A DNA stretch of 64,000 nt from Paracoccus versutus (GTDB lineage Bacteria > Pseudomonadota > Alphaproteobacteria > Rhodobacterales > Rhodobacteraceae), in assembly GCF_000763885.1 (NCBI RefSeq), contig NZ_JRKO01000007.1:1-64000 (forward strand). Direction: 5' to 3'. The position numbers were made by a program, and so were the translations under genes. Of this stretch, positions 39,672 through 54,380 are shown in pieces. Each line of letters opens with the position of its first letter. Position 1 is the stretch's first letter. The notes beneath the pieces were generated by a model that worked only from the letters and a program-made list of their open reading frames with translations, was not told the DNA's origin and did no database searches.

Positions 39672-41223
39672 TCAGTCCGCGCTGCGCAATGAATCCGTCA
39701 TCAGCTTGAAGCCGCGCGCACCGGCAGCAACGCCGGCCACTATCCGTTCCGGTCCTTCGTTCATTGGCGCGACGACCTCCAGGAATGGCAAGCCCCGAAA
39801 CAAGTACTGCCAGCAATACGGCATGGAAGAGGTAGTCCGCCGGCGAGCGTAATGCCCTGTCTTTCGCTGACGGCCGCCCTCGCCCGGCGCCATGCGGCCT
39901 CTACCGCAAGCAGAACAAAGCCGCGGTCGACCAGGTCGAGCATCGAGATCGGCTCTCCGCTGCGCTCGACCACCAAATGCGGCGCACGTGTGCCGGGCCG
40001 GCCCGACAGTTCGGCGACCGGCTCGAAGGGACGATCCGGCGGCGGACCTTCCGGCACGATCGCACCCGTGTCGTAGCGCTGCCCGAACACGATATCGTAG
40101 TCGTCCACGATGGCGACGGCAGGCGGCAGCCGCCCCGCAGGACCCTTGAACCACTGCTGCAAGCGGGCAAGCGCCTGCGCCACCGTCGCGGCGATCACCG
40201 ACCGGCGCTCCGCGTCGTAGCTGTCAAGCAGGCCGGCATCCGCCTCGCCCCGGACGACCATGGCGAGCTTCCCGGCCAGGTTGTGCGCGTCGTGGATGCC
40301 CGAATTGCCCCCGAATGCCCCGGTCGGCGGCATGAGGTGCGCGGCGTCGCCGACCAGAAAACAGCTACCCGCGGAAGCGCTTGGCGACGCATGCCGCCAT
40401 CTCCCAGAACCGCGCGTCGACCAACCCCGCCTTGATGCCGGATCGGCCGGCCGCCTTTTCGACGAGTTCCCGGCAACGGTCGCGGTCGAAATCCTCCGGT
40501 CGCTCGCCTTTCTCTGGAAAATACTGCAATGCCACCAGTCAGCGCCCGCCAGGACGCAGCGTGACGGTGGCGTTGAGGTCGGTAACGAAGCAGGAGGTGA
40601 AGCGCTCGCCGCCGATCTCGGAAGACAAGTCGGTGTCGAAGATGATGTTCATCCAGTGCTGCAACACGCCCGGACCGCTTCGGCCGATGCCGAACATCTC
40701 GCGGAGCCTGCCGCCGGCACCGTCGGCGGTGATCAGATAGTCGGCGACCGCCGTTTCCTCCTTCCCGGTTTCGCGATTTCGGATGACGGCGCGAACACCG
40801 GCGGCGTCCTGCTCGAAGGACAAGCGCTCGCTGCTGAAGCGAATGTCCGCACCCAGCCTCTCTGCGCAATGCTGCAGGATCGGTTCCAGAACGTACTGGT
40901 CGCAAGTCGCAGGCTGCGTGAGGCTGTAGGGGCTGGCACCGGGCCATGGCACCATCGCATATCTGGATCGGCAAGGCTTCTTCCCCGCACAATGCCGCCC
41001 CCTGCTGGTCACCGGAGCGTTTGGCGCGGATCTCCGCCTCCAGCCCGAGGCCGCGGAATATCTCCATGCTGCGGGGCGAGATGCCGGCGAATTTGTACTG
41101 GATCGACGTGTCGGCATGGCGCTTCACCACCATGCAGCCGATACCCTGATGGGCGAGAAGTGCTGCGGCCGTCAGGCCGTTCAGGCCGCTGCCGACGATC
41201 AGGACAGGGATATGCGTGCTCAT
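39672..41223 (-). pseudogene. FAD-dependent aromatic monooxygenase, several frameshifts
   Basis: ATG at 41223 starts VLIVGSGLNGLTAAALLA (FAD GxGxxG) and QYKFAGISPRSMEIFRGLGL. The family then continues in a second frame (ATCDQYVLEPILQHCAERLG ... DYLITADGAGGRLREMFGI, to about 40539) and a third ([20 protein letters not shown] and [11 protein letters not shown], to about 39870). A piece of the C-terminal thioredoxin-like domain is seen in yet another frame ([20 protein letters not shown]-like). Such genes (phenol hydroxylase-type) carry resistance to aromatics or rifamycin. At least three breaks make it non-functional as written. Confidence 0.85.
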
Positions 41224-41360
41224 GGGCTTCTCCCGTGCTTGGCATAAACGGGTTCGCCTCCGGCAGAGCCGGGTCACGTGCTGCCGGCATTTCTTTTGAC
41301 TAACAAAATCATTTGACCATTCAAAGTATGCCAAGACATTGAAGCAAGGCGAAACCGAAG

Positions 41361-41793
41361 ATGACGACACGCCCTCACGACGCGCCGGACCCTGCCACCG
41401 AGGCTTGGCGCTGTTTGATTTTCTGATGCGTTCGGCGCCGCAGCTTCTTGAGGCGCAGCAAAGCCATGAACTGACACCGAACCATTCCCGCGCCCTGTTC
41501 TCGCTCGACGCGGATGGCAAGCCGATCGGGGTGTTGGCGCGCGAATGGGGCTGCGACCCTTCGACTGCGACATGGTTGGTGGACCGGCTGGAGCGATCCG
41601 GCCTGGCCGACCGCGTTGCGTTGCGTTGCCCAGCGATCGGCGGGTGAAGCTCGTGCGAGCAACCGAAAAGGGAAGCGCGACGAAGGACGATTTGCAAGCG
41701 GCCTACTATCGTCCCCCGGCCGAGATCGCAAAGCTATCGCCAAGCGATCTCGATGCGCTCATCCGCATTTGTCGGAAGCTGCAAGATGGGTAA
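41361..41793 (+). pseudogene. MarR family regulator, two frameshifts
   Basis: ATG at 41361 gives TTRPHDAPDPATEAWRC, then a shift near 41410; LFDFLMRSAPQLLEAQQS with the winged-helix part VLAREWGCDPSTATWLVDRL is in a second frame, and RRVKLVRATEKG followed by LSPSDLDALIRICRKL is in a third after a break near 41630. It diverges from the FAD-monooxygenase pseudogene, the typical MarR-regulated pair. Confidence 0.8.
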
Positions 41794-41879: not shown

Positions 41880-42144
41880 CCGCCGTGCGGGAACTGGGAG
41901 CGCAGCCGGCTCCGGCTCGTAAAGCACGACTATCGGCAGGATCACGTCCGGGCTTTTGCGCAACGCGTCGAGGTGGCCGACGATGCAATCTACATCAGGC
42001 AGAAAAAGCGCCCTGTTGCGGACGCTGATAGCCACCAAGGGAGCGAAATGGCGGGAATCGGCGTTCCCGGTTTTATACCGAATTGGCGGAGGGGACGGGC
42101 CTGACGTCGAACCTTCTCCACTGATTTACTTTACAAAGCAATGA
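41880..42144 (+). pseudogene. Degraded C-terminus of a serine site-specific recombinase
   Basis: One frame reads VKHDYRQDHVRAFAQRVEVA and DDAIYIRQKK, and the same frame later gives MAGIGVPGFIPNWRR; an overlapping frame gives GRKSALLRTLIATKGAK. Put together they resemble the end of large serine recombinases, which finish in an IYIRGSKxxLLxTL segment and a VPSFVPKWR-like tail. The catalytic N-terminus is gone. It lies directly before the stress island, so it may mark the old insertion. Confidence 0.55.
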
Positions 42145-42177
42145 CTTACGTGCGTTTCCGTCAGCCGTCCGGCTGCC

Positions 42178-43122
42178 TTACCAATAAAATCCGAAGGACC
42201 TGAACCGCGGTTGAGCCTGTGGCGACGTCAGTGCGGGCATCGCGTGCCCGGCCATCGGCGGGACGGAAAGCGTTCGGCTGGGGGCCAGCGCGCGGAGCCT
42301 CGCGATCCGGCTTTCCACCGGCGGATGCGTCCGCAGCAGCGAGGGTTCGGGGATGCGTCTGCCGGGCAGGAAGATGTCCTCCCAGAACCGGCCGACGCGG
42401 CGCTCGAGCTTGCCGAGCGCGCCGATCAACCCCTCGGGGTCGCCGGTCAGGTCCGCCGCCACCCGGTCTGCATCGTATTCGCGGGTGCGCGACAGCCCGA
42501 GCTGGATCAGCGCCATCAGCGTGGGCGCGAAGATCAGGAGCACCACGACCGACCAGGGCACATGGACCATGCCCGCCATCACGAGCGGCAGGTTCACCAG
42601 CACAAGCAACTGTCCCATCCAGCTTGCCAGCGACACCAGCCGCGACATCACATCTGCGAGCCCCATGATCCAGAGGTCGCGATGGGCGATGTGGCCGATC
42701 TCGTGCGCGAGGACGCTGGCAAGTTCGCGGCCGTCGAGGATCTCGAGCAGCCCGTCGGTGACGCAGATCGTGCTGTCCTCGGGGCTGCCCATGGCAAAGG
42801 CGTTCGGCAGCCGGCTCGGGACGCGATAAAGCGCTGGGGTGCGCGGCAGGCCGGCGCGGCGCGCGAGCTCGGCAAGTGCTGCGATGAGACCGGGGGCCTC
42901 GCGCCCCGTCAGACGCTGGGCGCGATAGGCCGACAGCAGCATTCGTCGGGACAGGTCGGGGGCCAGAAACAGGCCGGCGACCATGCCGAGCGCGACGAGC
43001 AGCCCCGTTCCGGGCCCCAGGATCACGGTGACCGAAACCCAGGCGAGCGCCGCCATGAGTCCGAGCAGCAGCGCCGATTGCACGAGATTGAGCAGACGGT
43101 GGCGGGCGGAGGTCGCGGTCAT
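42178..43122 (-). CDS. htpX: HtpX-like membrane zinc metalloprotease (M48)
   Basis: A 314-residue inner-membrane protease degrading damaged membrane proteins. Two N-terminal helices (about 12-54), the zinc motif HEIGH at 140-144, the LSRTREYDADRVAADLTG third-ligand block at about 206-223, and two helices between (LVLVNLPLVMAGMV). The C-terminal part ends with THPPVESRIARLRAL typical of HtpX. The ATG at 43122 overlaps the psiE stop by 4 bases. tLST loci usually carry a protease such as DegP or HtpX at this edge. Confidence 0.93.
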   Translation of the reverse strand: MTATSARHRLLNLVQSALLLGLMAALAWVSVTVILGPGTGLLVALGMVAGLFLAPDLSRRMLLSAYRAQRLTGREAPGLIAALAELARRAGLPRTPALYRVPSRLPNAFAMGSPEDSTICVTDGLLEILDGRELASVLAHEIGHIAHRDLWIMGLADVMSRLVSLASWMGQLLVLVNLPLVMAGMVHVPWSVVVLLIFAPTLMALIQLGLSRTREYDADRVAADLTGDPEGLIGALGKLERRVGRFWEDIFLPGRRIPEPSLLRTHPPVESRIARLRALAPSRTLSVPPMAGHAMPALTSPQAQPRFRSFGFYW

Positions 43123-43598
43123 GTCGTCGTACGGTCTCCGAGTTCGCGCCGGTCCTGATCGCGCACCAGCCAGTGGACAGCGCCCAGTGCAAGCGCTGCG
43201 GCGGCGAGTGCGGCAATCTTTGCCGGCTCCGTCTCGCCGAGGTCCAGGATGATGAATTTGCGCGCGAGGGCGAGGAGCGCGATCAGCACGATCGTGCGGA
43301 CTTGGAGGATCCCGAAGCTGCGTTCGGTCGCAACAAGAAGGGAGCGCTTGAACTCGAGCGCGATCACTACGGTGAAGATCATGCCGAACACCACCTGGAA
43401 GGTGGCGTAATCGAGAGTGTCGAATGCCCCCAGAATCAAGCGGTTCACGACTTCGCGCAGCAGCGCCCAGACCGACGCCACGACGATCGCCGCAATGATG
43501 ACGCTGAGGACGATGATGACAACTTGCTCGAACTTCTCGTAGAGCGTCATCGCCGACCATTGTTCACGGGTCAGCCTGGATGGTTTCAGGTCTTTCAT
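43119..43598 (-). CDS. psiE: PsiE-type membrane protein
   Basis: A 159-residue protein of the phosphate-starvation-inducible E family with four hydrophobic helices. Start MKDLKPSRLTREQW, then YEKFEQVVIIVLSVIIAAIV, FGMIFTVVIALEFKRSLLV, and the conserved VRTIVLIALLALARKFIILD. Molecular function of PsiE is unknown, but it is a regular tLST member. Coupled to htpX by a 4-base overlap; 222 bases containing a terminator separate it from yfdX, so it may have its own promoter. Confidence 0.9.
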   Translation of the reverse strand: MKDLKPSRLTREQWSAMTLYEKFEQVVIIVLSVIIAAIVVASVWALLREVVNRLILGAFDTLDYATFQVVFGMIFTVVIALEFKRSLLVATERSFGILQVRTIVLIALLALARKFIILDLGETEPAKIAALAAAALALGAVHWLVRDQDRRELGDRTTT

Positions 43599-43766
43599 CA
43601 GTACCCCTCGAAGTTCCCCCCGGAATAGACAAGCTCTCCCTGGCTTGGCCGCAGACCGGGATCATTCGGGAGTTCTTTACCTGCGATGGAGCCAGGAACC
43701 AATTGTTATGTTTCGAGAACCGGGACTCTGGTCCCAGACTGTCGATCGTTCCTCAGTCTTCATGCG

Positions 43767-43804
43767 AAAGAGCCCCGCCGCCGGTCTCGTTTGCGGCGGG
43801 GCTC
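43767..43804 (-). terminator. Intrinsic terminator after yfdX
   Basis: A perfect 12-base stem (GAGCCCCGCCGC at 43770-43781, complement at 43793-43804) with an 11-base loop lies 16 bases past the yfdX stop and is followed on the minus strand by TTT. It separates the hsp20-yfdX unit from psiE-htpX. Confidence 0.8.
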
Positions 43805-43820
43805 CATCAGAGGTTCTCTT

Positions 43821-44780
43821 TTAGTTGAAGATGCGGGTTCGAAGTTCCTCGAACCGGGTCGCAATCGTTTCGAAGATCCCTCCGGTATCCTCCTGCGCCT
43901 TAATCTGACGGTCCAACTCATTCAGCGCCTCATGCAGATCCTCGAAATCGCTTTCGCGGCCGTAGCCGAGCGCTTCGGCGATTTCGATTTCCTGGCGTGC
44001 CGCCGCAACATAGTCGGCGGCCGTCAGATCGGCACCTTCAGTAGCGGCTTTGTCGTTTGCTTCAGTAGCGGCTTTGTCGTCTGCCGCCTTACCGTCGTCA
44101 TTGAGCAGAGCTTTGGCCTTCTCGATCATCGCCACGGCTCTGAGCGGAGGCAGGGCGATCACTGTTTCGGTCACCACCTGGGTGCTCAGTGCGGCGTTGA
44201 GAACCGTCATCGCTTCGTCGGTCTTTCCTTCATCAAGCAGTGCCGTCGCTGCGAGGATCGCGTCGGGATAGGTCGCAAGCGGCAGGCTGGTTGTCCGGAT
44301 GACAACCTCGGACGCGAACTCGCTCAGCAGCGGTCTCGCTTCCTGGAACTTCCCATCGTCGACCAAGTCCGCGATCTGTTTGCCGAGTCCTCGGACGGCT
44401 TCGACGCTGCCCAGAACGTCATAGGTGAAATGATTGACCGATACGGGCGCCAAAGCGAGATCCGGTTCACGCGCGACGACGGTCTCGAGCTTCCCCGTGG
44501 CCAACGCGAGCGCAGCAATCGCCGCATCTGTATCGCCCTTCTCGATCGCGGCGATCGCAGCGTTCGTTTCATCGAGCGCGTCGACCGCCTCCTGGATCAG
44601 GGCGGTGCGTTTATCGGCGAACTGTGAATCGGTTTCGGCGGTCACGCTCTCTTGGACCTGCTCCCGGTTGACCGCCTGCGCTTCAGCCTCCGCCTGAGCC
44701 GTATCCTGAGACCAGGAAGGGCCGGCGCTGACAATCAGCAGGGCCAAAGCTGTTCCCGCGTAAAGATTCCTGAGTTTCAT
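43821..44780 (-). CDS. yfdX: YfdX family periplasmic protein
   Basis: A 319-residue exported protein: signal peptide LYAGTALALLIVSAGPSWSQ, then an acidic Ala-rich linker and the YfdX helical domain (ALDETNAAIAAIEKGDTDAAIAAL-type repeats, LEVVVAREP-like LETVVAREPDLALAPVSV, and TTSLPLATYPDAI). YfdX proteins are periplasmic, often paired in tLST; here there is one copy, longer than usual by an insert at about 232-250 with a DKAATE repeat. It ends before a strong terminator; 72 bases separate it from the first upstream hsp20. Confidence 0.88.
   Translation of the reverse strand: MKLRNLYAGTALALLIVSAGPSWSQDTAQAEAEAQAVNREQVQESVTAETDSQFADKRTALIQEAVDALDETNAAIAAIEKGDTDAAIAALALATGKLETVVAREPDLALAPVSVNHFTYDVLGSVEAVRGLGKQIADLVDDGKFQEARPLLSEFASEVVIRTTSLPLATYPDAILAATALLDEGKTDEAMTVLNAALSTQVVTETVIALPPLRAVAMIEKAKALLNDDGKAADDKAATEANDKAATEGADLTAADYVAAARQEIEIAEALGYGRESDFEDLHEALNELDRQIKAQEDTGGIFETIATRFEELRTRIFN
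44036..44083 (-). repeat. Two-copy 24-base tandem repeat inside yfdX
   Basis: Copies at 44036-44059 and 44060-44083 differ at one base (TTTG versus TCTG at the end). In frame, each encodes DKAATE plus two residues. The repeat adds eight residues to the YfdX linker and may vary between isolates by slippage. Confidence 0.85.
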
Positions 44781-44852
44781 CGGTCTGTTCCTTTCGGCTG
44801 TGATTGGTTCTACGGCGGTTTCGCCGCAGAGTTGGCACGATCAATGCCCGGC

Positions 44853-45344
44853 TCAGGCCTCCTTGACCGCGATTTTCCTGACCTTGGCCTGGGCTTCGGG
44901 CGTTTGCGGCAGCTTGATCGTCAGAACCCCGTTCTTGAAGGATGCCTCCGCCTTTTCGCCATCCACACCGGGGGGGAGCGGGATTGTCCGATAGATCGCG
45001 CCGTAGCTGCGCTCGGACAGATAATACCCTTTTTTCTCCTCCTGGCGCTCGATCTTCTTCTCGCCCTTCACAGTCAACATGTCATCGTTGACCGTCACCT
45101 CGATGTCCTTCATCTCCATGCCCGGCAGCTCGATCGACACTTCGATCGCCTTGTCGGTCTCGACCACGTCGGATTTCGCTTCGCCGCTGCCAAAGGGCCA
45201 TTCGAAATGACCGACCCGGTTCCAGAAGTTCTCGAACACATGGTTCATTTCGCGCTGGAGTGTCGCGATCGGGTTGTCTTCGCTGCTCTTGGCATCTGGC
45301 GCGCCGTCCTTGCGCGCCCAGGGAATGAGGTCTTTGATCTGCAA
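44853..45344 (-). CDS. Small heat-shock protein, Hsp20 family (163 residues)
   Basis: An alpha-crystallin-domain holdase. N-terminal arm MQIKDLIPWARKD, then PIATLQREMNHVFENFWNRV, and the alpha-crystallin domain (about 55-148): VVETDKAIEVSIELPGMEM, LTVKGEKKIERQEEKKGYY, SYGAIYRTIPLPPGV and the closing GVLTIKLPQTPE. C-terminal tail VRKIAVKEA has the I-x-V-type anchor. It resembles the sHsp of tLST (sHspGI type). 20 bases separate it from the next hsp20 upstream. Confidence 0.95.
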   Translation of the reverse strand: MQIKDLIPWARKDGAPDAKSSEDNPIATLQREMNHVFENFWNRVGHFEWPFGSGEAKSDVVETDKAIEVSIELPGMEMKDIEVTVNDDMLTVKGEKKIERQEEKKGYYLSERSYGAIYRTIPLPPGVDGEKAEASFKNGVLTIKLPQTPEAQAKVRKIAVKEA

Positions 45345-45364
45345 GATATGGTCTCCTTCGGATT

Positions 45365-45763
45365 TCAGGCGCCCTTGACGGCGATCTTTTTCGGCTGCGC
45401 TTCAGGGGCTCGGGGGAGCGTCAGGTTGAGGACAGCTCCACGCATCTCGGCTTCGATCCTGTCGGGGTCGAAGTCCTCGGAAAGCGTGAAGGCACGCTCG
45501 AAATCGCCCTCGCCATATTCGGCATGGGCAAGTTCGAGGTTTTCCGGCCGCACCGGGTCAACCTTGCCGCGGATCGTCAACACGCGATTTTCGAGCGTGA
45601 TTTCGACCGCATCGGGAGCGACCCCAGGCATTTCAAGCATCATGGAGACGCCCTGATCGGTCTCGACGATATCGGTCAACGGACGGTAGATGCGTCCGCC
45701 GCCGGTGGTTTCGGGCGAGTCGGTCGGCGTCTTTTCGGCGGCTTGCGTGATGTCGGTGCTCAT
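45365..45763 (-). CDS. Small heat-shock protein, Hsp20 family (132 residues)
   Basis: A shorter member with a Thr/Pro-rich arm (ITQAAEKTPTDSPETTGGG) and the alpha-crystallin domain at about 30-125: IVETDQGVSMMLEMPGVAPD, LTIRGKVDPVRPENLELAHA, and VLNLTLPRAPEAQPKKIAVK. It lacks the FxxLxxEM-type N-terminal helix of its neighbours. It lies 14 bases after the first gene of the operon and 20 before the third. Confidence 0.94.
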   Translation of the reverse strand: MSTDITQAAEKTPTDSPETTGGGRIYRPLTDIVETDQGVSMMLEMPGVAPDAVEITLENRVLTIRGKVDPVRPENLELAHAEYGEGDFERAFTLSEDFDPDRIEAEMRGAVLNLTLPRAPEAQPKKIAVKGA

Positions 45764-45777
45764 CGTGCCAGCTCTTC

Positions 45778-46203
45778 TCAGGCTGCCTTGATCTCGATTT
45801 TCTTCGGCTTTTCTTCCTCGGGCCGGGAGATGACGATCCGCAATACGCCGTTCGTCATCCTCGCCTCGACCTTGTCATCCGAGGTCGCGAACGGCAGGCG
45901 TATAGCGCGGGAAAACCTGCCGTAACCGCGTTCGTTGCGGTGCCAGCGCGCACCGTCGGGAACCTCGGGCGCCTTGCGTTCGCCCGAAAGGGTCAGGACG
46001 CTGTCCTTGACCGAAATCTCAATGTCGCCCGGTTCGATGCCGGGAAGTTCAGCGGTGACTCCAACGGCCTCAGGGCCTTGCCAGACATTCACCGCCGGGA
46101 ACGCCGCGCGGGACGGCGGCCAGAAACCACGGTCGAGATCGCGCATCATGGAGCGCATCAGCGCAAAGGGATCGCTGCGGCGCAGATATGTCGGGTAGAG
46201 CAT
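45778..46203 (-). CDS. Small heat-shock protein, Hsp20 family (141 residues), first gene of left operon
   Basis: Start MLYPTYLRRSDPFALMRSMM resembles Hsp20/IbpA-like arms of class A; alpha-crystallin domain follows (GVTAELPGIEPGDIEISVKD, LTLSGERKAPE, YGRFSRAIRLPFATSDDKVE, GVLRIVISRPEEEKPKKIEI). The ATG at 46203 with AGGAGG before it is clear; a longer frame reaches into the control region and is rejected. Its 5' leader contains the ACCGCCTAT hairpin. Confidence 0.95.
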   Translation of the reverse strand: MLYPTYLRRSDPFALMRSMMRDLDRGFWPPSRAAFPAVNVWQGPEAVGVTAELPGIEPGDIEISVKDSVLTLSGERKAPEVPDGARWHRNERGYGRFSRAIRLPFATSDDKVEARMTNGVLRIVISRPEEEKPKKIEIKAA

Positions 46204-46404
46204 TGCTGGCCTCCTGTTGCTGATCGATGCCCCCGAACCGTCGGCATGGACGGACCGGGCAACGGTGCCGGCCGGATGTGGGTTCGGAGACCGCCTATCA
46301 AGATAGGCGGTTCCATTTATTATGCAAGCATATATGGTGCATGCATTGCGCATTGGATGGAGAGCAGTCTATCCTGTTTCTCATGCAGTGGAGGAAGGAT
46401 ACCC
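46204..46404. promoter_or_regulatory. Divergent control region of the stress island, with palindromes
   Basis: 200 bases separate the two operons. Clear symmetry elements: a 9-base inverted repeat ACCGCCTAT-CAAG-ATAGGCGGT (46290-46311); TATGC-AA-GCATA (46321-46332); TGCATGCA (46338-46345), all within a cluster of ATGC/GCAT half-sites to 46352. These suit a dimeric regulator such as the adjacent MarR-type protein. A possible rightward promoter is TTGCGC (46346-46351) with TCTATC 16 bases later (46368-46373). The ACCGCCTAT repeat would also form a hairpin in the hsp20 leader RNA. Confidence 0.65.
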
Positions 46405-46833
46405 ATGATCTCTTCTGATCTTGCCCTGATCGGGACGACGATCCACCGGGTCGCGCAGCTCATCCAGCAGCGGATCGACAACGAGATCGGCGACAGCGGC
46501 CTGACCCGCCTGTCCTGGATGGCGGCGACACATGTCGAGGATTCGCTCGGGCTGACCATCGGCGATCTGGCCGGGCGGCTGGAGGTAGGCCGGGCCACTG
46601 CGGGCCAGCTCGTCGATCGCATGGTACAGGGCGGTTGGGTCGAGCGGTGGCCCTCGCCCGACGACCGGCGGTCGCAGATCGTCACGGCAACACCTAAGGC
46701 CAGGGCGATGCTGGAGGAACTCGCGCCGCGGCAGTCGGCGCTCGAAGATGAAATCCTGCAGGATCTGTCGGCGGACGAAAGGCGCATTCTGCTGGCGCTG
46801 CTCGAGCGGATCAAGTCGCGGCTTTTACGCTAG
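46405..46833 (+). CDS. MarR-type regulator of the stress island
   Basis: A 142-residue winged-helix protein. Helical dimerisation ends are ALIGTTIHRVAQLIQQRI and SALEDEILQDLSADERRILL; the DNA-reading part is LTIGDLAGRLEVGRATAGQL (recognition helix) with VDRMVQGGWVERWPSPDDRRSQ as the wing, a clear MarR signature. Start ATG 46405 with GAGGAAGG upstream. It is the first gene of the right arm, 16 bases before ftsH. Classical gammaproteobacterial tLSTs do not carry a MarR here, so it may be a local repressor with autoregulation. Confidence 0.9.
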   Translation: MISSDLALIGTTIHRVAQLIQQRIDNEIGDSGLTRLSWMAATHVEDSLGLTIGDLAGRLEVGRATAGQLVDRMVQGGWVERWPSPDDRRSQIVTATPKARAMLEELAPRQSALEDEILQDLSADERRILLALLERIKSRLLR

Positions 46834-46849
46834 AGGGGGGCGAATAGGT

Positions 46850-48682
46850 ATGGAAAGGAAGACCGAATACAACATCTGGTACTGGGTGGTGGCTTTCATA
46901 GCCGTGCTTTTCATCCAGAACCTGATCGCCGGCTGGCAATCCGTCGCGCCGATCAGCTACAGCCAGTTCGAGAAGTATCTCGCTGACGGGAAAATTTCCT
47001 CTGTCGCGGTCGGGGCAGACACTATCACAGGCACCTTCGCCGAACCGGTCGACGGCAAGAAGCAGTTTGTGACGACCGTAGTGAATCCCGCAATCCTGGA
47101 GCGGATAGACCGGTCAGGTATCGAGATCACTGGCGTTCCGCAAAACACTTTTCTCGGCACGCTGATTTCCTGGGTGGCGCCAGCGCTTGTCTTCTTCGGA
47201 ATCTGGATGCTGCTGTTCCGCAAGTTCGCCGACAAGCAGGGTTTTGGCGGCTTCATGCAGGTCGGCCGCAGCAAGGCCAAAGTTTACATGGAAAAGGAAA
47301 CCGGCGTCAGCTTCGCCGACGTGGCCGGTGTGGACGAGGCCAAGGCCGAGCTCGAGGAGGTCGTGGAGTTCCTCAGGAACCCCGCCGAATACGGAAAGCT
47401 GGGCGCACATATCCCCAAAGGCATATTGCTCGTCGGGCCGCCGGGAACCGGCAAGACGCTTCTGGCGCGCGCGGTGGCAGGCGAGGCCGGCGTGACCTTC
47501 TTTTCGATCTCGGGATCAGAGTTCGTCGAGATGTTCGTGGGCGTCGGTGCCGCACGGGTGCGCGACCTGTTCGAGCAGGCCCGGAAATCGGCCCCGGCAA
47601 TCATCTTCATCGACGAACTCGACGCTCTTGGGAGGGCGCGCTCCTCCGGCCAGATTGCCGGTGGCCATGATGAGCGTGAGCAGACGCTGAACCAGCTTCT
47701 GACCGAGCTCGACGGCTTCGACCCTGCAGTGGGCATCGTGCTCCTGGCCGCCACCAACCGACCCGAGATTCTCGACCCCGCGCTGCTGCGTGCGGGACGC
47801 TTCGACCGTCAGGTGCTGGTGGACCGGCCCGACAAGACGGGGCGTGTGCAGATCTTGAACGTGCACATGAAGAAAGTGACGCTCGCCCCAGACGTCGATG
47901 CCGAGAAGGTCGCAGCTCTTACTCCCGGCTTTTCCGGCGCGGATCTTGCCAATCTCGTCAACGAGGCAGCATTGCTCGCCACGCGCCGCAAGGCTGATGC
48001 GGTGACGATGGACGACTTCAACAATGCGTTGGAACGCATCATCGCCGGGTTGGAAAAGAAGAACCGCGTGCTCAATCCGCGCGAACGCGAGATCGTGGCG
48101 CACCACGAGATGGGGCACGCGCTGGTGGCGATGGCTCTGCCGGGGGTGGACCCGGTGCACAAGGTCTCGATCATACCGCGCGGGATTGGCGCGCTCGGCT
48201 ACACCATCCAGCGCCCGACCGAGGACCGCTTCCTGATGACGCGGGAGGAACTCGAAAACAAGATCGCAGTCCTGCTTGGCGGGCGCGCAGCAGAGAAGAT
48301 CATCTACGATCATGTCTCGACCGGGGCGGCGGACGATCTGGTCAAGGCGACCGACATCGCCCGCGCCATGGTCGCGCGGTACGGGATGGACGAAGAACTC
48401 GGGCATGTCAGCTACGACAGCGATCGGCCCGGCTTTCTCGGCACCGGCGACCAGTCGTCCTGGCTGAACCGCCGTTACAGCGACGCCACTGCCGAGCGGA
48501 TGGACGCGAAGGTGCGCGACATCGTGGATGGCGTGTTCAAGCGCACCCTCACCCTTCTTGAAACCAATCTGGATCTTCTCGAGCAATCGGCGCAGGATCT
48601 CCTGCAAAGAGAGACACTGGACGAGCCCGATCTTGTGGCAATTGGGGCCAAGTTGAAAAGAACGGAAGCGGTCGCTGCGTGA
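46850..48682 (+). CDS. ftsH: AAA+ membrane metalloprotease FtsH (island copy)
   Basis: A 610-residue protein. TM1 at about 7-25 ([19 protein letters not shown]), a periplasmic loop of ~70 residues, TM2 at about 103-123, Walker A GPPGTGKT at about 197, Walker [18 protein letters not shown], the second region of homology [20 protein letters not shown], zinc motif HEMGHALV at about 419, and the [19 protein letters not shown] block. It degrades damaged membrane and regulatory proteins. This is the accessory FtsH of tLST, distinct from the housekeeping copy, with no long acidic C-terminus. 64 bases before clpK. Confidence 0.97.
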
Positions 48683-48746
48683 CACTGTCACTGGCGCAGA
48701 TGATCGGCGAACAACCCTGACTGGATAATGAAAACGGAGAAGACGA

Positions 48747-51653
48747 ATGGCAAACGGAGCTTGCGATATTTGCGGTCGCCCGGCGACGGCGCGCGTGCGC
48801 GCCTCGGTGAACGGCAGGGTTCAGAACATGGAGCTGTGCGATCAGCACTACAGCGAAATGGCGCGCCGGTCGGGGCGCAGCGCCTCGCCGCTTGAGTCCC
48901 TGTTCGGACGGCGTTCCCTTCTTGACGAATTCTTCGGCGAGAGCGGTTTCGGCAGCCTCTTTGGTGACAGTCCGCTGCGAGGCGGCACGCTCGGCTCTAT
49001 GGGTGATGGCGATGACGCTGTCGTCGACGCCACTGTCGGCGAGCGCGCGCCGCGGCGTGGATCGCGGCGCGGCGGCGGACGCACCATCGCCGACCGGCTG
49101 AGCGAACAGGGCAACAAGCTGCTGCAGGATGCAGCACAGAAGGCCGGGGAATTCGGGCGCAGCGAGGTCGATACCGAACATCTGCTTCTGGCATTGACCT
49201 CGTCTGACGTCGTCAAGACGATCCTGGAACAGTTCAAGGTCGATGTGGACGATCTGCGCCGCCAGATCGAGAAGGAAGCGAAGCGTGGAGACGCCAAGAC
49301 GGAAGGCGAAATCGGCGTAAGCCCTCGCCTGAAGGACGCGCTGAACCGGGCCTTCATCGCCTCGAACGAACTCGGCCATTCCTATGTCGGTCCCGAGCAC
49401 CTTCTGATCGGACTTGCCGAGGAAGGTGAAGGCCTGGCCGCGGCGATGCTGCGCAAGCTGGGGTTGACGCCGCAGGCGCTGCGTCAGCAGGTGACGAAGG
49501 TGGTCGGCAAGGGAGCCGAGGAAGGCCGCGTCGAGACTCCGTCGAACACCCCCGATCTCGACCAGTTCAGCCGTGACCTGACGAAGCTTGCCCGCGATGG
49601 CAAGCTCGATCCCGTCATCGGCCGCGCCCGCGAGATCGAGACGACGATCGAAGTGCTGGCCCGCCGGAAAAAGAACAACCCGGTGCTGATCGGCGAGCCC
49701 GGCGTGGGCAAGACCGCCATCGTCGAGGGACTTGCACAACGGATCGTCGCGGGCGAAGTGCCCGAGGCGCTGCGCGACAAGCGGCTGGTCGAGCTCAACA
49801 TCAACTCGATGGTGGCCGGGTCGAAGTATCGCGGCGAGTTCGAGGAGCGAGTCCAGAAGATCCTCAAGGAGATCACCGAGGAGAAGGACAGCCTGATCCT
49901 GTTCATCGACGAGATGCACACCATCGTCGGCGCCGGCCAGGGCGGTGGCGAAGGTGGTCTCGACATCGCCAACACCTTCAAGCCGGCGCTGGCGCGGGGC
50001 GAGCTGAACCTGATCGGCGCGACGACGCTCAACGAGTACCAGAAATACATCGAGAAGGACGCGGCGCTCGAGCGACGGTTCCAGCCGGTTTATGTGGACG
50101 AGCCCACGGTCGCACAGACGATCATGATTCTGCGCGGGCTGCGCGACACGCTCGAAAGCCACCACAAGGTGACGATCACCGATGAGGCGATCATCGCCGC
50201 CGCGGAGCTTTCGGATCGCTATATCACCGGTCGCTTCATGCCCGACAAGGCGATCGACCTGATCGACCAGGCCGCGGCGCGGGTGAAGATCTCGGCCACT
50301 GCGCGGCCCGTGGACGTGCAGGAACTCGAAGCCGAGGTCGCGCAGATCAAGCGCGAACAGGACTATGCCGCAGCCCGCAAGCAATTCGACCGAGCAGCAG
50401 AACTGAAGAAGGAGCTGGAGCAGAAGCAGAAGGAGCTGGACGAGCTTCTGGAGATCTGGAAGCGCGATCAGGCTTCGGCGACCGCCGAGGTGCGCGCCGA
50501 TCACGTCGCGCAGATCGTCTCCAAGATCACCGGCGTTCCGGTCACGGACCTGACCACCGAGGAGAAGGACAAGCTCCTCAAGCTCGAGGAGAAGCTGCAC
50601 GAGCGCGTCATCGGCCAGGAAGAAGCGATCCGCGCCGTGGCCGATGCGGTGCGGCTGGCGCGTGCGGGTCTGCGCGATGGTTCCGGTCCGACTGCGACCT
50701 TCCTGTTTCTCGGGCCAACCGGGGTTGGCAAGACGGAACTGGCCAAGACGCTCGCGGAGGTGATCTTTGGCGACCAGGATGCGCTGATCCGTATCGACAT
50801 GTCGGAGTATGGCGAGCGCCACTCGGTTGCCCGGTTGGTTGGCGCACCTCCGGGCTACGTCGGATACGACGAAGGCGGGCAGCTGACGGAGAAGGTGCGC
50901 CGTCGGCCCTACTCGGTCGTGCTCCTCGACGAGATCGAAAAGGCGCATCCCGATGTCTACAACATCCTGCTTCAGGTGTTCGACGATGGCCGCCTGACAG
51001 ATGGCAAGGGCCGCGTGGTGGACTTCACTAACACCATCATCATCGCCACCTCGAACCTCGGTTCGGACATCATCCAGCGCAACCTCACGAAACGCGGCAG
51101 CAGTGAGTTCGACGAGGCCAAGCAGAAATCCGAACTGATGGAGGTGTTGCGCGGTCATTTCCGGCCAGAGTTCATCAACCGGATCGACGAGATCATCGTC
51201 TTCCACTCGCTGAACCAGTCGGAAATCCGCCAGATCGTGGGGTTGCAGCTGAACCGGGTGAAACGGACCGCCCTCGGCCAGGGCGTCGAGCTCGAGTTCG
51301 ACGTGAGCGTCGTGGATCACTTCGGCGCGGTCGGCTTCCGCCCCGAATTCGGCGCCCGCGAGCTGCGCCGGCTGATCCGGTCGGAGCTGGAGACCGAGTT
51401 GGCTCGCGAGATGCTCTCCGGGCGGATCGAGGATGGTGACAAGGTCCGCGTCGCCTGGTCGGCGGACGAGCAGAAGGTCGTGTTCGAAAAGATCGCAAAG
51501 GACACCGGTGACGACAGCCCGGACGATCAGGCCAAGGCCGGGATCGACGAGTCCGGCAAAGTTGCCCAAGAAAAGGCGCACGCTCCGACGCCCGACGTCC
51601 CGGCCGAGGCCAAGGATGAGGTGCAGTCCAAGGACGACAAATCCGCCGGGTGA
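48747..51653 (+). CDS. clpK: Heat-resistance disaggregase ClpK
   Basis: A 968-residue Clp ATPase of the ClpK type. The N-terminus has the ClpK-specific zinc-finger-like CDICG and LCDQHY pairs (C6, C9, C30, H33), then an Arg/Gly linker, Clp_N repeats ([32 protein letters not shown]), AAA1 with GEPGVGKT at about 314 and [15 protein letters not shown], a coiled middle region ([20 protein letters not shown]), AAA2 with [10 protein letters not shown] at about 655, and a basic/acidic tail. ClpK confers thermotolerance in Klebsiella and E. coli. Downstream the hairpin at 51672 and the fusion gene follow. Confidence 0.96.
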
Positions 51654-51671
51654 CTTTGCGAAGGACTGGCC

Positions 51672-51693
51672 CGGCGCGATGACGGTCGCGCCG
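51672..51693 (+). terminator. Hairpin between clpK and the HPF-sigma gene
   Basis: An 8-base perfect stem (CGGCGCGA at 51672-51679, complement at 51686-51693) with a 6-base loop, followed by CCCATTTCG, not a T run. It could attenuate or stabilise the clpK message rather than end it; spacing to the next ATG is 38 bases. Confidence 0.35.
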
Positions 51694-51731
51694 GCCCATT
51701 TCGTCGGAGGGTTGCAGGAAGGATCCGCGGC

Positions 51732-52874
51732 ATGGAAGTCATAAGAGCGTTTCGCAATCTCGACCGGCACGGCCAACAGCGCGCGCCTGAGGTCATCGAG
51801 GAAGAGGTGCGGCAACTTGAACCGCATCTTGGACGCTTCCGCGAGGAACTCGTCCGGCTCGAGGTCGTCGCCTCGCAGACGAAGGGCAAGACGCGCATCC
51901 AGGTCAGCCTGCGCCTGCAACTGCCCTCGGGAATGATCGCGGCGCAGGAAGAGGGGTTCGAGATCGAGCCTGCCCTGCGCAAGGCCTTTGCCGATCTGCG
52001 CCACCGGGTCGATCGGCATGTGGCGCGCCTCAAGCACGAGCCTGAGTACAAGCGTCCCGCCCGCCGGCGCCGGATCGGCGCCCCGCTGGCGCCCGCGCGG
52101 GATGCGGCGGAAGCGGAACGGCGTCAGCTCTTCTTCGACCTGATCGAGGATCATCTCGATACGGTCTACGACACCGTCAGGCGTGAGTTGACCTATCTCG
52201 AATGCAGTGGATCTGTGCCGGCTGGTTACCTGAGCGTTGGCGATATCGTCGATGCGACGATCCTCAAGGGGCTGGCCCGCTTCGAGGATCGGCCTTCGGA
52301 GTTTTCCGTCGGCGACTGGCTGAAACGGCTGGCTTTTGAGACCATCGAGGAAGAATCCCGCGCCGCCCGCCGCGCCGTGCCTGAGGATGCCGCCTCCATC
52401 GAGGCGGAACCCGAGGCCCCGGCGGAGGATCCGACCGAGGCCGATCAGGCGATGATCGAGTTCTACCAGCCCGACGAAGTGCTGATGCTGGAGGACCTCA
52501 TCGCCGACGACGGCGGCACAGACCCCGAGACCGAAGTGGATCGTCATAAGATCGCCATGGCACTGCACCGGGCTATCGCAGATCTTGCTCCGGTCGAGCG
52601 CCGCGTCCTGTATCGGATGTACCTGGAAGACGCCACGATCGCGGAGACGGCAGACCTTTTCGGCCTGACCGAGACAGAGGTCGCCGAGATCGCAGAAAAT
52701 GCGGGCGCGACACTACGCGCGAGGCTTGCCGAAGCCGGGTCGGTCAGAGATCCATCAGGCCGCGCGCCCATCGAACGGGAAATCGCTCACACGCAGCGTC
52801 TGCCTCAGCCGATCGAGGATCGCCGCCGCTTGGCCGCCGCCCTAACCGGCGAGGAGGCCGGCTCCGACACCTGA
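51732..52874 (+). CDS. Fusion of an HPF/RaiA-like ribosome-binding domain with sigma-factor-like domains
   Basis: A 380-residue protein. Residues ~1-115 match hibernation-promoting factor folds: EVRQLEPHLGRFREELVRLE, KGKTRIQVSLRLQLPSGMIA, then EIEPALRKAFADLRHRVDRH and a basic KRPARRRR edge. Residues ~125-215 contain a sigma region 2-like helical block (FDLIEDHLDTVYDTVRREL, VDATILKGLARF). Residues ~270-345 are a region 4-like helix-turn-helix (IAMALHRAIADLAPVERRVL, DATIAETADLFGLTETEVAE). No family with this order is known to me. It lies in the clpK operon before hdeD. Possible roles: stalling ribosomes and redirecting transcription during stress. That is inference. Confidence 0.75.
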   Translation: MEVIRAFRNLDRHGQQRAPEVIEEEVRQLEPHLGRFREELVRLEVVASQTKGKTRIQVSLRLQLPSGMIAAQEEGFEIEPALRKAFADLRHRVDRHVARLKHEPEYKRPARRRRIGAPLAPARDAAEAERRQLFFDLIEDHLDTVYDTVRRELTYLECSGSVPAGYLSVGDIVDATILKGLARFEDRPSEFSVGDWLKRLAFETIEEESRAARRAVPEDAASIEAEPEAPAEDPTEADQAMIEFYQPDEVLMLEDLIADDGGTDPETEVDRHKIAMALHRAIADLAPVERRVLYRMYLEDATIAETADLFGLTETEVAEIAENAGATLRARLAEAGSVRDPSGRAPIEREIAHTQRLPQPIEDRRRLAAALTGEEAGSDT

Positions 52875-52900
52875 CATGGAACTGAATAGGAGATCGACCA

Positions 52901-53548
52901 ATGACCACAGCCTCTGAAAACCCGACCGACAAGATGCAGGACATGCTGTGCAGCCTGTCCCGGAATTGGTGGGCATTCGTGTTACGCGGCGTGCTCGCAT
53001 TGATCATCGCAGTGCTAGCCTTCGTCATGCCCGCGGAAGCGCTTCTGGCGCTCACGCTGGTCTTCGGCGCGTTCGCCTTTGCCGACGGCGTGTTCGGCCT
53101 CGTCGCCGCGATACGTAACATCCGCAAGGGCGAACGCTGGGGCTGGCTGATGTTCAGCGGCATTCTGGGCATCGCCACGGGCGTCGTCGTGGTTGTCTCG
53201 CCTTTTGTCGCGACGCTTGTGCTTGCGACATTCCTCTGGGCCAGCATCGCATTCTGGTCCGTGTTCTCGGGTGCCCTCGAGATCGCGGCAGCGATCCGCC
53301 TGCGAAAGGAAATCAACGGCGAAATCTGGCTGATCCTGAGCGGCCTTCTCTCGGTCGTTCTCGGTGTCGTCGTGACCTGGATGCTGCTGACGCGCCCGGT
53401 CGAAAGCTTCCTCGCGCTCGGCTGGCTGATCGGCTTCTACGCCGCGGTCTTCGGGGTGATGATGATCCTCCTCGGGCTACGGCTTCGCAAGGCGGATCGT
53501 TCGGACGGTGCGGCTTTCGATAACGCTCCCCCAACGGCAAAGGCGTGA
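52901..53548 (+). CDS. hdeD: HdeD family membrane protein (DUF308)
   Basis: A 215-residue protein with six hydrophobic helices. Start SLSRNWWAFVLRGVLALIIA and repeated G-rich helix pairs (LTLVFGAFAFADGVFGLV; GRLMFSGILGIATG-like; LSGLLSVVLGVVVTW) are the DUF308 pattern. HdeD protects against acid in E. coli and is a standard tLST gene. The stop overlaps the next small gene (GTGA). Confidence 0.94.
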   Translation: MTTASENPTDKMQDMLCSLSRNWWAFVLRGVLALIIAVLAFVMPAEALLALTLVFGAFAFADGVFGLVAAIRNIRKGERWGWLMFSGILGIATGVVVVVSPFVATLVLATFLWASIAFWSVFSGALEIAAAIRLRKEINGEIWLILSGLLSVVLGVVVTWMLLTRPVESFLALGWLIGFYAAVFGVMMILLGLRLRKADRSDGAAFDNAPPTAKA

Positions 53549-53760
53549 GGTGCCCTGTGGTGGATGACTGGCGACTTGCCGGCGAGGAGCACGATTTCAC
53601 CCGATGGGACGAAACGATCTTCGACCGTTGCCTGAGCACCGGCTTCAATCCGTTCGGCAGCGGTCCGACGCCAATCTTCCTGCGGCACCGGGACGCAGTG
53701 GCGCCGGACGCCGATGCAAAGCCGTGCAAGCCATCTGACACCGAAAATGCGAGGTGCTGA
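53545..53760 (+). CDS. Small unknown gene coupled to hdeD
   Basis: A 71-residue frame, GTG start overlapping the hdeD stop by 4 bases and a TGATG overlap with the next gene. MRCPVVDDWRLAGEEHDFTR and WDETIFDRCLSTGFNPFGSG have no known motif; three Cys are present. The tight coupling on both sides suggests real translation rather than a chance frame. Confidence 0.5.
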   Translation: MRCPVVDDWRLAGEEHDFTRWDETIFDRCLSTGFNPFGSGPTPIFLRHRDAVAPDADAKPCKPSDTENARC

Positions 53761-54380
53761 TGTCGAACCGCCTGCCTGACTTGGCATTTGCTGCTGCGGC
53801 CGCTGCCTTGGGCATCGGCATCGTTTTCGTTTTTCGTTCGATGTATCTTGCCGAAGACATACTGCCTTTCGCGCAGGAGATGACTCTCATCTTCCTCGGC
53901 GCTGTCGTGACGATCATTCTGACCGCGGCGCTTCTCAATCGCCAGACCGATCTCGAGCTTCGCAAGGAAGGAAGGGTCATCATCCTCCAGCAGCAATGCG
54001 ACATTTACATGGCCTGTATCGAGAAGGTCGCAGAGATCGTGGAAACCGCAAGGCACGATGCGAAGCTGATCGATGACCTGCGTGTTCTCAGCCACAAGCT
54101 GGCTGTGGTCGCGAGTGCAGGGGTCGTGTCCAGCTTCGAGCAGGTACTGGAGAGCTTGCAGTCCGGTTTTGCTGACGGCACGCTCTCGGACGGGGACGGA
54201 GAGGGCGTGATGAATGCCGTCGCCGATCTCACGATAGCGATGCGGTCGGACGTCCTGCACGCTGCTGCCTTTCCTTCGCAGAACACCGAACGCGCCGTTC
54301 GCCTGAATTCGAGGCGAATGGAAAAACTCGGCGATCTCGAACGTCACCTTCTCGTATCCACCGACTCCCGGGAGAACTGA
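53760..54380 (+). CDS. Membrane protein of unknown function in the stress island
   Basis: A 206-residue protein. Two N-terminal TM helices (LAFAAAAAALGIGIVFVFRS and MTLIFLGAVVTIILTAALLN) are followed by a helical cytoplasmic domain (ELRKEGRVIILQQQCDIYMA, IDDLRVLSHKLAVVASAGVV). ATG 53760 overlaps the previous stop; GAGG lies upstream. It is unlike YfdX or PsiE. It occupies the place where tLSTs carry their small orf11-type genes. Confidence 0.8.
   Translation: MSNRLPDLAFAAAAAALGIGIVFVFRSMYLAEDILPFAQEMTLIFLGAVVTIILTAALLNRQTDLELRKEGRVIILQQQCDIYMACIEKVAEIVETARHDAKLIDDLRVLSHKLAVVASAGVVSSFEQVLESLQSGFADGTLSDGDGEGVMNAVADLTIAMRSDVLHAAAFPSQNTERAVRLNSRRMEKLGDLERHLLVSTDSREN

Follow-up and report, generated by a model that had tools for sequence, protein, structure and literature searches.

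How are the two arms of a divergent heat-resistance island switched from the single gap that lies between them? The question is raised by a stretch of 64,000 nucleotides of Paracoccus versutus DNA (from here on, the window), in which a gap of 201 bp parts an hsp20 gene on the minus strand from a MarR-family gene on the plus strand. The genes next to the gap are the following:

Positions 45778 to 46203, minus strand: Hsp20, first gene of the left arm; the start at 46203 (ATG) was picked for its ribosome site.
Positions 46405 to 46833, plus strand: candidate repressor of the MarR family, opening the right arm; 142 aa with no cysteine, ATG at 46405.
Positions 46850 to 48682, plus strand: FtsH protease (TIGR01241, 773.6 bits, cut-off 600); start codon set by eye.

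The open frame of hsp20 could start as far up as 46353, and 46203 was adopted throughout. The ftsH gene begins 16 bp after marR, and both are probably in one operon. According to profile matches, the left arm contains three Hsp20 genes, YfdX, PsiE and an M48 peptidase, while the right arm is composed of MarR, FtsH, a ClpK/ClpG-like AAA ATPase (1606.9 bits with the ClpK model, under its cut-off of 1900, and under both curated cut-offs), a protein matching S30AE and sigma-factor models, and a protein of the DUF308 (HdeD-like) type. As judged from these matches, the island is related to LHR/TLPQC/tLST, with the content of those mobile heat-resistance islands in a divergent order. Plasmid records covering at least 80% of a 3.9-kb query numbered 13, at 90-96% identity, with Paracoccus, Shinella, Agrobacterium, Roseomonas, Methylorubrum and Ciceribacter as hosts, and the MarR gene was detected at 76-100% identity in 44 loci (L002-L045), of which almost all bear an alphaproteobacterial label (that of L036 names a Rhodocyclaceae bin). 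The comparisons described below indicate that the 201-bp gap serves an alphaproteobacterial heat-resistance island as a control region and is conserved widely.

Two other places of the island deserve mention. The right-arm product encoded at 51732-52871 (+) matches S30AE, a ribosome-hibernation-type domain, slightly below the cut-off, and a sigma-70 family NCBIfam model at 51.1 bits, above the cut-off of 42.9; its Shinella homologue is annotated as 'flagellar biosynthesis protein FliA', and it is a possible second regulator of the island. At the left edge (39672-41793), overlapping frames on both strands resemble, by their translations alone, two broken genes, one for an FAD-dependent hydroxylase and the other a second MarR-like one.

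A previous sequence-only reading of this DNA had placed a MarR-type gene at the head of the right arm, and the profiles bear this out: the product of 46405-46833 matches the winged-helix domain of the family with PF12802 (MarR_2, 47.2 bits, cut-off 27) and PF01047 (38.1 bits, cut-off 24.6), and no NCBIfam MarR equivalog was above its cut-off for this protein. Residues 59-74 and 84-94, which we take to be the place of the recognition helix and the wing, are mostly invariant in eight aligned proteins. OhrR senses via a thiol, and the lack of cysteine in the window MarR argues against sensing of that type; ligand sensing and thermal unfolding remain as options.

The same reading had noticed ATGC/GCAT palindromes beside this gene. 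These are real, and they resolve into two sites, 15 bp apart from centre to centre, in the pattern TGCNNGCA-N7-TGCNNGCA:

Positions 46321 to 46332, no strand: O1, TATGCAAGCATA, operator-like palindrome that holds the RpoH -35 CTTG (minus strand) at its centre.
Positions 46336 to 46347, no strand: O2, GGTGCATGCATT, second operator-like palindrome, overlapping the probable marR -35 by 2 bases.

O1 is a 12-mer symmetric about an AA centre, and O2, the weaker site in the window, is a perfect ATGCTTGCAT in several relatives, in which it forms a perfect inverted repeat with O1. The composite ATGCAAGCAT-N5-ATGCNTGCAT was found at 46322-46346 with 1 mismatch, and allowing up to 3 mismatches gave no second copy anywhere in the window (0.00 expected from 100 shuffles). 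Taken singly, sites resembling TATGCNNGCATA (2 mismatches or fewer) numbered 11 versus 10.5 by chance, in such a way that the pair, not the single site, is exceptional; further operators elsewhere in the island were discarded because single sites are no more frequent there than by chance. In the 5.5-Mb genome TATGCWWGCATA occurs at two places. The other one (C17:61940-61951, L118) is intergenic and part of a larger inverted repeat that may be a terminator; its flanks resemble, by eye, a ferredoxin-type reductase and a formate dehydrogenase, and with no visible link to MarR it was rejected as a MarR site and put down to chance or another regulator.

Both sites meet promoter elements, of different quality:

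Positions 46301 to 46328, minus strand: RpoH-type promoter of hsp20, CTTGCA-N15-CCTATCT; -35 CTTG at 46328-46325, -10 at 46307-46301.
Positions 46346 to 46375, plus strand: probable sigma70-type promoter of marR, TTGCGC-N18-TATCCT; weak, found by eye.

The RpoH1 and RpoH2 consensus sequences used for comparison are presumably those of Sinorhizobium meliloti. They read CTTGCC-N15-16-CCTATCT for RpoH2 and CTTGAA-N15-16-CCTATAT for RpoH1, as given in a passage of PMC4843759 citing Barnett 2012. The looser pattern CTTG-N17/18-CYTATNT is matched upstream of hsp20 with 0 mismatches and in the right orientation. This pattern has 24 sites on both strands of the 5.5-Mb genome versus 13 for the reversed pattern, so that the RpoH consensus arises by chance too. 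Among the 24 there is one that precedes dnaK. In the 450 bases upstream of two groES genes the best match had 2 mismatches, and the 450 bases upstream of four other hsp20 genes likewise held no perfect one (1, 1 and 2 mismatches, and one gene without a match up to 2). The genome encodes one RpoH above the family cut-off. The hsp20 transcript is predicted to start around 46293, with a leader of about 90 nt. O1 is centred on the -35 CTTG (46325-46328), so that binding of a protein to O1 and binding of the RpoH polymerase should be mutually exclusive. This promoter, absent from the sequence-only reading, is a more likely source of heat control than the RNA element which that reading put forward.

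On the other side, O2 overlaps the marR -35 less surely, that is, if the promoter proposed by eye is right; a strict sigma70 scan detected no sigma70-type promoter for marR in the gap. In locus L019 the spacer of this probable promoter has a run of around 13 G, versus around 6 in sister loci, possibly a slippery tract that changes the spacing between -35 and -10, or a sequencing error.

The conservation of the pair was studied in 55 gaps (window, L002-L045, L082, L083, L111, L112 and L120-L125). The MarR search matched 79 loci, of which 35 weak ones (L046-L080, 32-41% identity) were left out; 164 genomes matched, two of them, of high identity, being used besides that of the window, and from the 13 plasmid records with most of the query 3 were taken (L111, L112 and L130). 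The pair TGCNNGCA-N7-TGCNNGCA is present with up to 2 mismatches in 54 of the 55 gaps (0 in 34, 1 in 19 and 2 in 1), the remaining gap having 4. Among 20,000 base-shuffled gaps 0.05% attained 1 mismatch and 0.9% at most 2, and a perfect RpoH match appeared in 1 of 3000 shuffles of the window gap, the shuffles preserving base composition and not dinucleotides in both cases. The RpoH match is perfect in 48 of the 55 gaps, with its CTTG within O1 in 48 of 48. It is imperfect in the other seven (L042, L044 and L122 with 3 mismatches, L124 and L125 with 4, L015 and L123 with 1), so that RpoH control is not universal, and the perfect match, as these gaps suggest, is a trait of the main clade. These operator and promoter counts are not independent, because the majority of the 55 gaps come from closely related loci that transfer has spread; many are near copies, and therefore the diverged loci carry more weight.

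Within the main clade (41 distinct sequences, after nine loci were set aside as diverged, shortened or added late), mean column conservation is 0.93, and the means for the cores are 0.988 for O1 (TGC..GCA) and 0.955 for O2. Neither these cores nor the RpoH -35 and -10 are clearly above random intergenic positions of the clade in conservation, the corresponding fractions being 0.066, 0.072, 0.119 and 0.385 for the -35, the -10, the O1 core and the O2 core, respectively.

In the diverged loci, the pair shows 0 mismatches in L042 and L044, whose MarR is 76-77% identical, and 1 mismatch each in L122, L124 and L125, which are alike among themselves. The rest of the gap cannot be aligned with that of the window in any of these five loci, and the pair is still kept, 55-64 bp before marR (59 in the window). 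At a greater distance, the Limimaricola locus L127, with a MarR 45% identical, has CGCACGCA-N7-TGCATGCA (1 mismatch) next to MarR, FtsH and AAA ATPase genes, and its divergent partner is HtpX, not Hsp20; the Roseomonas locus L130 shows the pair with 2 mismatches. Altogether, the pair is present in 56 of 57 MarR-bearing gaps, the exception being L123 (MarR 42% identical), which is without the N7 pair. Two loci lacking MarR, a small control, gave at best 4 mismatches (P. denitrificans ftsH, L126) and 3 mismatches (E. coli island, L128). These data support that the operator pair tracks the MarR gene rather than hsp20.

Some of these loci show peculiarities of their own. L127 belongs to a Limimaricola variabilis plasmid from a hydrothermal vent plume, and its arm adjoins GrpE, DnaJ-type and DegQ genes. 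Upstream of the MarR match of L123 there are palindromes CGCATGCA and TGCATGCG, 30 bp apart, which is double the usual 15-bp spacing. In L122, L124 and L125 the MarR frame is disturbed, the best match being split across two frames, with one stop in L125; the single mismatch is borne by O1, and in L124 and L125 the first hsp20 is apparently only a remnant, all of which suggests that the switch is decaying there.

The DNA itself shows the order of the genes, the two sites at a constant spacing and always in the company of MarR wherever they were seen, and the RpoH-type promoter; from these we infer MarR binding, repression, sigma usage, the marR promoter, an inducing signal and a feedback by FtsH. 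With a probability of about 0.75, the region would be the shared switch of the divergent island, in which a MarR repressor that also controls its own gene keeps both arms in check, in competition with the RpoH polymerase. MarR, as a dimer or a pair of dimers, would sit on the two palindromes 15 bp apart, with O1 covering the -35 of the RpoH-type promoter that would drive the hsp20 arm, and O2 at the -35 of the promoter that probably serves marR-ftsH-clp. In the bound state MarR would thus repress its own operon and keep the RpoH polymerase off hsp20, and both arms would be on when MarR is released and RpoH rises, hsp20 needing RpoH as well. RpoH is degraded by FtsH in other bacteria, according to a passage of PMC7685784, so that the right arm, once induced, could through its FtsH bring RpoH down later and shut off the left arm. 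The proposal that one repressor serves both arms is in this way favoured by comparison, since the pair co-occurs with MarR at a fixed spacing and overlaps the hsp20 -35 and, less surely, that of marR.

Apart from the repressor, the leader of hsp20 could contribute a layer of its own. Its relevant features are:

Positions 46229 to 46291, minus strand: hsp20 leader hairpin; arms 46291-46281 and 46239-46229, loop of 41 nt.
Positions 46208 to 46214, minus strand: GGAGGCC, over the hsp20 ribosome site AGGAGG (46215-46210); invariant in 34 aligned leaders.
Positions 46286 to 46292, minus strand: GGUCUCC, a possible anti-ribosome-site, which the predicted fold places within the leader hairpin.

The hairpin, formerly described as a 9-base repeat, is real and longer than that, as its arms GUCUCCGAACC (46291-46281, minus) and GGUUCGGGGGC (46239-46229) form 11 pairs, two of them G-U, in the dominant fold of the leader. 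We tentatively consider, at somewhat below even odds, that it is functional in a non-thermal way, shielding the 5' end of the message and/or holding the CTCC off the ribosome site, with translation always on. The arms are more conserved (1.0 over 10 bases for the 5' arm and 0.986 over 9 for its partner) than the loop (0.905), which weakly favours a structural role rather than temperature sensing, and the hairpin is predicted with a probability of at least 0.95 up to 45 degrees for transcripts starting at 46293 or 46296. With an upstream start, however, this falls to around 0.78, the start site being itself a prediction; a start at 46290 cuts the 5' arm, and only openness values are valid for it. 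In the alignment of 34 of the 37 distinct leaders (L035, L042 and L044 excluded), pairing is kept in 98.6% of 367 cells, but no pair changed on both sides, either in the hairpin or in the anti-site helix, and the pair counts of both say little because the arms hardly vary. Furthermore, the hairpin is missing in L035, which has lost around 55 bp of leader and retains the RpoH match and a two-mismatch O1-O2 pair, and the leaders of the diverged L042, L044 and L122 cannot be aligned with that of the window. Separately, small length differences right after the hsp20 start seem to shift the frame of L015 and L112 with respect to other loci.

As to the action of MarR, it is unlikely that the protein binds the gap but acts chiefly as an activator or countersilencer instead of repressing both promoters. 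O1 and O2 both overlap -35 regions, and such an overlap is the usual position for repression by occlusion. What speaks for activation is that relatives of the MarR/SlyA type can act in this way, as described in parts of PMC5797941 and PMC2676509.

It also seems quite unlikely that MarR itself is the heat sensor, losing its binding to DNA on warming in a RovA-like way and perhaps being cleared by FtsH. The hsp20 -35 would then be freed as RpoH rises, making an AND gate in 8 bases, and the leader hairpin, instead of being a thermometer, would have a constitutive 'keep-open' function. The analogy is with RovA, which belongs to the MarR family. In Yersinia, RovA loses its DNA binding and is degraded on warming, according to passages of PMC2676509.

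A further candidate, absent from the sequence-only reading, is the following:

Positions 46290 to 46311, no strand: 22-bp palindrome ACCGCCTATC-AA-GATAGGCGGT, spanning the hsp20 -10.

That this palindrome is the main control site, as a third operator or as a terminator for antisense transcripts, is highly doubtful. Its 10-bp arms are perfect, it is unique in the genome, and the plus strand scored as terminator-like, but all 10 pairs are formed in just 3 of 34 distinct aligned sequences (window included), with 7-9 in the others, and the half outside the promoter drifts: the half with the -10 is conserved at 0.99, and the other one at 0.937, which is average. Pair counts were not clearly above those of shuffles. 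As an operator it was rejected, given that the symmetry is not maintained in relatives and selection for symmetry was not seen.

The weakest reading is the one in which the leader is an RNA thermometer, with the CTCC on the ribosome site when cool and opening on heating. The proposed CTCC:GGAG complementarity holds, and even extends to 7 pairs, one of them G-U, between GGUCUCC (46292-46286) and GGAGGCC (46214-46208), with pairing kept in 97.5% of 238 cells across the 34 leaders. In addition, TCTCCGAACC is invariant in 41 of 41 main-clade sequences, just 0.5% of equal-length blocks being equally conserved. The predicted population of this pairing is, however, 0.5-1% at 37 degrees and 2-3% at 45, because the CTCC is held in the leader hairpin. 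The openness of AGGAGG in the window is predicted to be 0.57 at 25 degrees, 0.56 at 37 and 0.55 at 45, and to stay almost constant between 25 and 50. Over 42 leaders (from 44 distinct gaps, L042 and L044 being excluded for lack of a recognisable -10), the mean goes up slightly, from 0.47 at 25 to 0.50 at 45 degrees, with a range of 0.17-0.59 at 37, so some relatives are closed. When 60 coding bases were included, openness between 25 and 45 degrees went from 0.56 to 0.52 for a start at 46296, from 0.54 to 0.45 for 46293, from 0.375 to 0.388 for 46290 and from 0.333 to 0.363 for 46315. The predicted change across these four assumed starts is thus from -0.09 to +0.03, which speaks against the temperature-dependent change proposed for the leader. 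Its stability is not unusual with respect to 200 shuffles (z +1.23; 186 of the 200 fold at least as well), and a search of 42000-54000 against Rfam at E up to 5 gave no thermometer family, its two matches being outside the gap and neither of them a thermometer. With folding at several temperatures, shuffles, Rfam, pair counts and relatives (the leader mostly missing in L035 and unalignable in L042, L044 and L122) all failing to support it, a single RNA element acting as temperature switch appears very improbable.

We compared the proposed MarR switch with known systems. The island resembles the LHR/TLPQC/tLST islands of beta- and gammaproteobacteria in its Hsp20, ClpK/ClpG-like AAA ATPase, FtsH, YfdX, PsiE and DUF308/HdeD-like proteins, and it is classed as a relative and not as a member, the core unit of those islands being dna (MerR-like), shsp20GI and clpGGI. 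Passages of PMC7685784 and PMC8290217 describe the MerR-like regulator Dna in the core unit of the gamma and beta islands and a sigma32-independent transcription of clpG. In the E. coli island the listed genes run one way, whereas here the arms are divergent, with a MarR gene and an RpoH-type promoter. Alphaproteobacterial versions of the island with extra small heat-shock proteins are mentioned in a part of PMC8290217, in whose text the word 'MarR' does not occur, and a literature search over listings and some passages, with most subscription journals outside it, found no report of MarR at an hsp20 island. Mutations in hsp20 after heat cycling are described for Methylobacterium PA1 in a passage of PMC13170269.

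As in the SlyA/RovA branch, for which part of PMC5797941 gives a 12-bp palindrome with a GCAAGC core (SlyA consensus TTAGCAAGCTAA) that is also located upstream of its own gene, the sites found here are 12-bp palindromes with such a core, next to the regulator. By contrast, the outer bases differ here and the sites number two, with 15 bp between their centres. Of the solved structures, those of proteins named MarR match the profile slightly better than SlyA does (44.5 versus 33.7 bits), and the likeness of O1 and O2 to TTAGCAAGCTAA is taken as a lead only. The hsp20 leader, with its possible anti-ribosome-site, recalls thermometers of the ROSE type, from which it differs in having no Rfam match, no predicted melting and a partly open site.

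Heat-resistance islands move among bacteria of many habitats, and their switching is poorly known. If the proposed switch is true, a repressor that travels with its own operators over a heat-shock promoter would explain how the alphaproteobacterial form is quiet in new hosts and yet heat-responsive, O1/O2 being a short and directly testable site. The hsp20 promoter is like the RpoH2-type promoters of alphaproteobacteria described in a passage of PMC4843759 (CTTGC as -35, CCTATCT as -10, 15-bp spacing), and unlike them in that its -35 core lies inside a repressor-type palindrome. In this sense the hsp20/marR region shows a new form of regulation for a type of island already known, and its components are known as well.
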